Source: Anaerolineae bacterium
GTDB lineage: Bacteria; Chloroflexota; Anaerolineae; Aggregatilineales; Phototrophicaceae
Assembly: GCA_022823945.1 (NCBI GenBank)
Contig: JAJEBK010000018.1
Span: 26,987-90,986 of the forward strand
Direction: 5' to 3'
Length of the DNA stretch: 64,000 nt
Positions within the stretch are counted from its first letter, which is position 1; the number at the start of each line of letters is the position of its first letter. Shown piece after piece: positions 10,950-57,345 of the stretch. A model generated the notes under the pieces. It saw nothing but the letters and a program-made list of their open reading frames with translations, searched no databases and was not told the origin of the DNA. A program made the position numbers and the translations under genes.

Positions 10950-11031
10950 ATACCCCCTCGGTCCCCCGACGGGACAGGGGGAGGCAGATTTTGGCTACCC
11001 TCTCCGTCCTGACGGGGAGGGGTAGGGGGCC
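10950..11031. repeat. C/G-rich palindromic repeat (family A), two units
   Basis: CCCCCTCGGTCCCCCGACGGGACAGGGGGAGGCA and GGCTACCCTCTCCGTCCTGACGGGGAGGGG. Confidence 0.8.
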
Positions 11032-17733: not shown

Positions 17734-18360
17734 ATGCCCCGCTTGTTCGTTGCCATCGACCTGCCGGACGCCGCCAAAGACCAGATTCTTGGTTTGCGCG
17801 AGGACGACCTGCCGCCCGGCCGCTGGACACGCCGCGACGCGCTGCACTTGACGCTGCATTTCATCGGCGAAACGGGGGAGAAACAAGCGCGCCGATATGA
17901 GCAGGCGCTGCAGCAGGTGGATGTGCCGGCTTTCGTCTTGCAGATCGGCGGCGTCGGGCAATTTCCGGTCGACAGCAGGCCCCGTGTGATCTGGGCGGGC
18001 ATAGGGAATACGCCGGCGCTGCGCGCGCTGCACGAGGCGGCTGGACGCGCCTTGCAAATCGGCGGCTTTCGGCTGGAACGGCGGCGCTTCCACCCACACA
18101 TCACGCTGATGCGCTTCAAGAAACCGCTGCGCCGAGGTCTGGCAAGCCGCTGGATTCAAGCGCATCTGGATTTCCACATCGAGCCGGTTTCTGTGCGGGA
18201 ATTCGCTTTGTACGAGAGCCAACTGCGTCCGGGCGGCGCGGTCTATACAAAACGCGCAGTGTATGCGCTGCGCAGGCACCCCCCTCAGTCCCCCCGACGA
18301 GTCAGGGGGAGGCAAACTCCCCTCGGTCCCCCGACAGGTCAGGGGGAGCAAATACCTTGA
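17734..18360 (+). CDS. thpR: RNA 2',3'-cyclic phosphodiesterase (2'-5' RNA ligase family)
   Basis: 'HLTLHFIGE' and 'HPHITLMRF' HxTx motifs; C-terminal ~28 aa encoded by a C/G-rich repeat. Confidence 0.9.
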   Translation: MPRLFVAIDLPDAAKDQILGLREDDLPPGRWTRRDALHLTLHFIGETGEKQARRYEQALQQVDVPAFVLQIGGVGQFPVDSRPRVIWAGIGNTPALRALHEAAGRALQIGGFRLERRRFHPHITLMRFKKPLRRGLASRWIQAHLDFHIEPVSVREFALYESQLRPGGAVYTKRAVYALRRHPPQSPRRVRGRQTPLGPPTGQGEQIP

Positions 18361-43170: not shown

Positions 43171-43332
43171 GGGCAGTCTCCTTCGTAGTCCGTTTCCATT
43201 TTCGGGCGATCTGGTATATCGCCCCAAGCCTAATCACACTTGGATATTGCCTCCCCCTCCGACCCGACGGGGGACCGAGGGGGTTATCGAGCGAGTTATC
43301 GCCTCGTCCCTACGAGAAACTCCAGTTGGTAA

Positions 43333-45256: not shown

Positions 45257-46285
45257 ATGCAAGCTATCCGAGCTGCCGTGCGCGATGCCGCCAGACTCTG
45301 CCAACTGGTGCAAGATCGCTACCTGAGCGCCAGCACAAAAACGGCGGGCGATCATACCGAGCCAGTGACAATCGCTGATTACGGCTCGCAAGCCATCATC
45401 TGCCGCGCCTTGCAGCAGCGCTACCCTGACGACGCGGTCATCGCCGAAGAATCGGGCGGGCAATTCAACCAACTGGTATCCAGCGAAAAGCGCGCGCAGG
45501 TGCTGCAACTGCTGACGACTGTGCTGGGCGAGGCGGTGAGCGAGTCGCAGCTTTTGGCTTGGCTCGATTTCGGCGCGGGCCGGCGGTCTCGACGCACCTG
45601 GGTGATCGACCCCATCGATGGCACGAAAGGATTCCTGGCGCGGCGGCATTATGTAATCGCTTGCGGTCTGCTGATAGACGAGAGGGTTGCCGATGGCATC
45701 GTTGCGGCGCCGGGCTACAACATTAGACCCCCCTCAGTCCCCCCGGTGGGTCAGGGGGAAGGCAGACCCCCCTCGGTCCCCCCGACGAGTCAGGGGGAAG
45801 ATGGCCCTGGTGCGTTGTTTTATACGGAGGGCGGCCGAGCCTATCGAGCGCCATTGACGGGCGGCGCTGGGCAGCGAGTGACAGTATCGGCGCGGCGAGA
45901 TGTTGATGAATTTGTCGCCGTGCAGAGCTACGAGCGGGCGCACGCCAGCAAATCACGCATGGGTCGGGCGCGGGAGCTGGCGGGTTTGGGGGGCGCGCGC
46001 ATCATTGAGCTGGACAGCATGGAGAAATATGCTTTGGTGGCTTGTGGCGATGGCGATTTGTATATGCGCTTGCCTCGCCCGGGCAGCGATTATGCGCACA
46101 AGGTCTGGGATCATGCCGCTGGCGTGGCGCTGGTGCAGGCGGCTGGCGGCATGGTAACGGGGCTGGACGGCGAAGCGCTGGATTTTTCGCGCGGCGAGAC
46201 TCTGCCCAATGCGGGCATGATCATCAGCAACGGGCAGCATCATGCGCGGGTGGTCGCGGCGGTGGGGCGGATAATGACAGATTGA
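45257..46285 (+). CDS. 3'(2'),5'-bisphosphate nucleotidase/inositol monophosphatase-family protein with in-frame repeat insertion
   Basis: 'AVIAEESGGQF', 'WVIDPIDGTKGFLARRHYV', 'KVWDHAAGVALVQAAGG'; interrupted in frame by 2 x 13 aa repeat. Confidence 0.88.
   Translation: MQAIRAAVRDAARLCQLVQDRYLSASTKTAGDHTEPVTIADYGSQAIICRALQQRYPDDAVIAEESGGQFNQLVSSEKRAQVLQLLTTVLGEAVSESQLLAWLDFGAGRRSRRTWVIDPIDGTKGFLARRHYVIACGLLIDERVADGIVAAPGYNIRPPSVPPVGQGEGRPPSVPPTSQGEDGPGALFYTEGGRAYRAPLTGGAGQRVTVSARRDVDEFVAVQSYERAHASKSRMGRARELAGLGGARIIELDSMEKYALVACGDGDLYMRLPRPGSDYAHKVWDHAAGVALVQAAGGMVTGLDGEALDFSRGETLPNAGMIISNGQHHARVVAAVGRIMTD
45728..45805. repeat. Family A repeat, two 39-bp units inside a CDS
   Basis: Encodes PPSVPPVGQGEGR / PPSVPPTSQGEDG; each unit 13 codons. 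Confidence 0.9.
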
Positions 46286-53414: not shown

Positions 53415-53490
53415 TTCTCCTGCTAGTGTTTAAGCTTCCCCTTCCCTCTTGATGGGGGAAGGGGACCGAGGGGATGGGGGAAACGAAATC

Positions 53491-57177: not shown

Positions 57178-57183
57178 AGTGCT

Positions 57184-57345
57184 ACCCCTCGGTCCCCCCA
57201 ATAGCCGTGCGTAGGGGCGAGCCAACCTCCCTCGGTCCCCCCGACGAGTCAGGGGGAGGCAAGCATTGGCTACCCTCTCCGTCCTGACGGGGAGGGGCTG
57301 GGGGAGGGGTCATAGTAAGCTTTGGCTACCCTCTCCGTCCTGAGG
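57184..57345. repeat. Family A (and C) repeat cluster
   Basis: cctccctcggtccccccgacgagtcagggggaggc; ggctaccctctccgtcctgacggggaggggc and a further partial copy. Confidence 0.8.

Follow-up and report, generated by a model that had tools for sequence, protein, structure and literature searches.

An untagged palindromic repeat lies in frame in a HAL2-like nucleotidase gene and in other genes of a Chloroflexota genus

Palindromic repeats inserted in frame into genes have been described from Rickettsia; several other bacteria show the same with REPs (PMC3733652). The Rickettsia palindromic elements (RPEs) lie in frame within open reading frames, often as dimers or groups, and encode 20–30 residues (PMC3733652). 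The GTAG and CGTC REPs are hairpins of 20–40 bp that occur as singletons and dimers, mostly between genes, with a minority in frame inside open reading frames (Di Nocera et al. 2013, PMC3733652). Two Xanthomonas species have been reported to carry different REPs at nearly the same position in recB (PMC3733652). For the Chloroflexi, our search of the openly accessible literature returned only GTAG-23 of T. roseum and no description of the repeat analysed here.

This repeat occurs as two tandem units within a bisphosphate nucleotidase-like gene of the window, the whole stretch of 64,000 nucleotides that was analysed. The window belongs to a 3.5-Mb assembly in 55 contigs (G000), which we compared with 33 congeners; the genus is represented by 34 species genomes, all of them drafts and probably metagenome-assembled. 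The insert very probably consists of two arrayed units of a palindromic element, REP-like and non-autonomous, that is tolerated in frame in a surface loop. It resembles the RPEs in being a short palindromic repeat that is present in many copies and lies in frame within functional genes, but it has another sequence, is GC-rich and lacks the CGTC tag of R. conorii RPE-4 and RPE-6. It is likewise, as are the GTAG/CGTC REPs, a short hairpin found as singletons and dimers, mostly intergenic and in a minority of cases in frame. T. roseum GTAG-23 is tagged and clustered (PMC3733652), whereas the present repeat is untagged and dispersed. Among 51 distinct units the stem is flanked by CTCRR and RG, with neither GTAG nor CGTC at the ends, so the family falls outside those super-families, though it works alike.

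In-frame palindromic insertion as such was already known. What is new here is an untagged palindromic family in the Chloroflexota together with repeated turnover at one protein loop. With it, a phenomenon for which Rickettsia is the best-known case reaches many ordinary metabolic enzymes in a genus of Chloroflexota.

A dispersed hairpin repeat

The 16-base core of the repeat, CCCCCCTCRGTCCCCC, is found 9 times in the window where 0.85 matches would be expected, and none of 100 shuffles reached 9. Across the G000 genome, a 17-base exact core occurs 95 times (0 for a reversed-pattern control) and a 14-base core with at most 1 mismatch 223 times (6 for the control). A profile scan of 68 stretches around copies, 467 kb in all, yielded 156 copies in 128 arrays. 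The repeat lies on both genome strands, and 98 of the 116 non-genic arrays are single copies. Its A module has 34 bases, a 5′ arm (CCCCCCTCRR) and a hairpin, TCCCCCCGAC-nn-GTCRGGGGGA, and is followed by RG. A second hairpin, the B module (A)CCCTCTCCGTCCTGACGGGGAGGGGCTGGGGGAGGGGTT, follows A in 35 of 116 non-genic arrays versus 1 of 12 genic ones. No Rfam family was found in the window.

The palindromic nature of the repeat, as claimed from the sequence alone, is supported by covariation among the copies. Across 51 distinct copies, hairpin covariation is 0.134, compared with 0.059 ± 0.008 after shuffling (0 of 500 shuffles reached it), with 23 cells changed on both sides; it is strong at the inner pairs, where GC to AT and AT to TA changes are each seen in 11 sequences. 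The shuffle control leaves the relatedness of the copies in, and a slid-register control is likewise far lower. A rival fold, in which the 5′ C-run would pair with the G-run, shows no compensatory changes in the copies and was rejected. The single-strand fold of the nucleotidase array is no better than that of shuffles (z = +0.91; z near 0 for the A unit), and the evidence for the hairpin was therefore taken from covariation instead. As a high-copy, dispersed hairpin of 20–40 bp, the repeat is REP-like in the broad sense.

Copies elsewhere in the window had been described as intergenic. This holds for four sites (10952, 43250, 53442 and 57183; Table 1), but the pair at 18279/18317 encodes the tail of a LigT/ThpR-like protein. 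With a spacing of 38 nt, each of its two units is translated in a frame of its own. The G062 and G090 orthologs of this protein match only to residue 180–181, up to the repeat tail.

Table 1. Positions in the window of the insert-bearing gene, its inserted units and other repeat copies
Feature	Position	Strand	Details
HAL2-like 3′(2′),5′-bisphosphate nucleotidase gene	45257..46285	+	342 aa + stop (codons 45257–46282); insert carrier
Inserted unit 1	45722..45760	+	39 nt, codes I-R-PPSVPPVGQGE; absent in G062, G090, G064 and ~20 other congeners
Inserted unit 2	45761..45799	+	39 nt, codes G-R-PPSVPPTSQGE; absent in orthologs like unit 1
Host codons GAT GGC (DG)	45800..45805	+	seen at empty site of orthologs
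Two A-module copies (18279/18317), spacing 38	18279..18350	+	C-terminal tail (18279–18357) of LigT/ThpR-like protein (gene 17734–18360)
A-module copy then B module, intergenic	10952..11000	+	
A-module copy, intergenic	43250..43284	-	
Two A-module copies (first degenerate) then B module, intergenic	57183..57260	+	
Divergent A-like copy, intergenic	53442..53475	-	3 core mismatches

The insert in the nucleotidase gene

The insert-bearing open reading frame is a single frame and matches PF00459 (inositol monophosphatase family) over residues 5–339 (E = 1.7e-39). Among curated models, its nearest group is that of the HAL2 3′(2′),5′-bisphosphate nucleotidases. With TIGR01330 (bisphos_HAL2) it scores 194 bits (E = 3e-57), below the curated cut-off of 267 for that equivalog; we therefore call it HAL2-like and give no exact substrate. 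The best Foldseek matches of its predicted structure are Arabidopsis SAL1 (8f9y; TMq 0.86, E 9e-30) and yeast HAL2 (1qgx). Profile and predicted fold together place the protein in the HAL2/SAL1/CysQ bisphosphate nucleotidase family. A DNA methylase gene (PF01555; 46350–47141, + strand) lies directly downstream, and this stretch looks A+T-richer.

Two tandem units of 37–39 bp, 89% identical and spaced 39 apart, match at 45728 and 45767, in agreement with the in-frame, two-unit repeat recognised by the sequence-only reading. They read CCCCCCTC(A/G)GTCCCCCC...GTCAGGGGGAAG (45728–45800), and the second is nearer to the genome consensus than the first (38.9 versus 32.2 bits). The bounds proposed for the insert, 45728–45805, had the right content, two 39-bp units, but need moving. 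The near orthologs, those of G062, G090 and G064 (84–88% identical) and of about 20 more aligned congeners, have an empty site in which TAC AAC is followed directly by GAT GGC, the clean join that had been predicted. Their alignment defines the inserted DNA as 45722–45799, exactly 2 × 39 nt (78 nt), and assigns GAT GGC to the host. The insert encodes 26 residues (156–181); without it, the protein has 316 residues. A MITE would have terminal inverted repeats and a target-site duplication. No duplicated bases are visible at the insert junctions in the ortholog alignment, and at some of the handful of other insert loci compared, neighbouring bases appear to have been replaced by the insert.

Among the same-genus orthologs read, only that of the sister species G081 (92% identical) shares the insert. 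There it is 87 nt long, and its left end resembles part of a further unit. The two species thus show the expected variation in copy number or length, differing by a multiple of three.

The gene is under constraint. Its dN/dS between G000 and G081 is 0.224 at a dS of 0.178, and values range from 0.18 to 0.26 across all pairs. Positions invariant across 32 sequences, including WVIDPIDGTKG and WDH, are intact in the insert-bearing gene (the final residue was trimmed in most orthologs of this alignment, with no effect on the result). Judged from these sequences, the gene is not a pseudogene, a finding that would have counted against the insertion reading. A constrained gene, a preserved frame and an empty site in relatives are found together here, which is how RPEs behave; the analogy with Rickettsia, already drawn in the sequence-only reading, points to a shared way of working rather than to membership of the same family.

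In the AlphaFold2 model (mean pLDDT 87.6), residues 157–182, which correspond to the insert, have pLDDT below 50 and form a loop between strands 143–151 and 186–191. The insert is therefore a predicted disordered surface loop, as had been anticipated. A similar linker of unrelated nucleotide sequence in orthologs lacking the repeat would have spoken against insertion. Near orthologs have no linker at this site, but distant HAL2/SAL1 homologs carry a non-homologous loop of variable length there, and the site was thus already tolerant of length changes.

In-frame copies in other genes

Counting that of the nucleotidase, 12 of the 128 arrays in the 467-kb sample lie in frame inside coding sequences. 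The remaining genes encode a sugar-phosphate isomerase-like protein, a sulfatase, an S-Me-THD (DUF917) protein, a DNA methyltransferase, a GH116 protein, an amine oxidase, a DAO-family oxidoreductase, an SHMT–GcvT fusion, a membrane protein (three units), a glycosyltransferase-like membrane protein (two units) and a P450 (two units, in opposite orientation). Pfam domains span the insert in the sulfatase, GH116, amine oxidase, DAO, S-Me-THD and AP_endonuc_2 genes. Five of the six unit frames are free of stops. The genic copies use at least five of the six repeat frames, so that none of the possible peptides is preferred. Inside genes, direct tandem units are 39 apart in all 4 cases; elsewhere the spacing is a multiple of three in 13 of 20, numbers too small for a firm conclusion. 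The unit length divisible by three that had been emphasised does not hold generally: outside genes repeat spacings run from 28 to 72.

Gene-breaking insertions were not recognised among the 128 arrays of the 467-kb sample. Five same-strand arrays accompanied by a frame change were considered as such and look like gene–gene junctions; two in-gene matches (L131:1301 and L132:14849) were excluded, their frames being probably spurious. At some gene–gene junctions the end of a gene falls inside the repeat. For example, hisD terminates within a copy (L161:4309–4342), with hisC directly after, so that the element supplies its stop codon and C-terminus. In the apparent serine hydroxymethyltransferase/GcvT-like fusion, the repeat occupies the linker region (L172:1284–1317). 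The two opposed copies in the cytochrome P450 gene (L198:10746–10840) add about 33 residues in frame.

Turnover of inserts between species

The 34 species genomes make it possible to read directly where sites are empty, where inserts were gained, lost or turned round, and where they later decayed. Among the species read, the amine oxidase insert is present in G000 only. The glycosyltransferase-like gene has two units in G000, one in G064 and none in G062 and G090. The DAO insert is found in G000, G081 and G064 (6 nt shorter), is apparently decayed in G090 and is absent from G062; the frame is kept throughout.

The loop of the GH116 protein (29 species, L249–L277) holds a forward repeat in ten species, a reverse repeat in three (one of them a remnant), both in G083 and a possible remnant in G064, and is free of the repeat in the remainder; it is always in frame. 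Sister pairs differ in orientation (G077/G079 and G085/G094) or in presence (G075/G084). On a two-gene tree, these states require at least 13 changes, and filled versus empty at least 9, counts that are approximate because only 10 of the 26 inner branches are well supported and that do not separate gains from losses. We tentatively raise the possibility that, in this genus, one mobile hairpin moves into the same tolerant protein loops again and again, being lost and regained, with the frame kept and the orientation free. The hairpin might then be a continuing source of disordered peptide insertions, moved by something other than a Y1 transposase.

Origin and mobilisation of the insert

We propose that a repeat array integrated into the nucleotidase loop and, as the simplest assumption, place this event in an ancestor shared by G000 and G081. 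An insert of 2 × 39 nt preserves the frame, and five of six unit frames lack stops; translation would therefore continue through the insert and add a disordered Pro/Gly-rich loop, while purifying selection maintains the nucleotidase. The element resides mostly between genes, and copies inside genes would survive if they add a total length divisible by three, introduce no stop codon and sit in a loop or tail. The array may later lengthen or shorten by slippage, or by recombination between neighbouring units. Copies presumably spread by transposition, or by copying via a hairpin intermediate, through the action of some enzyme. Against this account stand the failure to find a mobilising enzyme, the lack of a visible target-site duplication at the nucleotidase site, the apparent replacement of neighbouring bases at other loci, which does not resemble clean transposition, the ordinary single-strand fold of the array and the draft state of all the genomes.

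The tandem units, their exact 39-bp spacing and the 9 nt by which the inserts of G000 and G081 differ would also be expected of a local minisatellite, a 39-bp unit that arose and expanded within the gene by replication slippage, unrelated to mobility. Coding minisatellites likewise have units that are multiples of three and vary in copy number or length between relatives, but here the element is dispersed genome-wide and the locus is empty in most congeners. The roughly 223 copies, on both strands, mostly single and at many unrelated gene loci, refute slippage as the sole origin; as a complete account it is very improbable, and it stands as a source of local copy number, in which role it may have made the second unit. 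Still harder to credit is a decaying pseudogene that has yet to acquire stops. An insert near conserved strands could be damaging, but the dN/dS of 0.22 against the sister that shares it, and the retention of WVIDPIDGTKG and the other invariant positions, argue otherwise. The sequence-only reading of a dispersed element accommodated by a working gene is borne out.

A further alternative is that the loop, rather than being merely tolerated, has taken on a useful role, for instance as an interaction linker or through an mRNA hairpin. Some inserts do persist across species, as that of the DAO gene does, but no frame or peptide is preferred, the nucleotidase insert is missing in most species and the GH116 loop repeatedly lacks the insert or carries it in the other orientation; we regard recruitment as improbable. 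Slightly less so, though still improbable, is that the copies are moved, like those of GTAG REPs, by a RAYT (REP-associated tyrosine transposase). The likeness to REP dimers lies in the hairpin, flanked by a single-stranded arm, and in the opposed A and B modules, but the consensus has no GTAG tag, and a PF01797 (Y1_Tnp/RAYT) search gave no match in G000, G081, G062 and G064, genomes that are about 94% complete, or in G090, although it was positive in five control genomes and in the nearly repeat-free G063. With no Y1 transposase detectable in repeat-rich species, the question arises of what moves the element.

Whether such inserts are merely carried along or give rise to new segments of proteins becomes testable by comparison and simple enzyme assays. 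Copy number varies widely between congeners, from about 2 to 261: the close relatives G000 (223 copies), G081 (261) and G062 (223) are rich in the repeat, G064 has 85, and G090 (8) and G063 (2) are poor in it.
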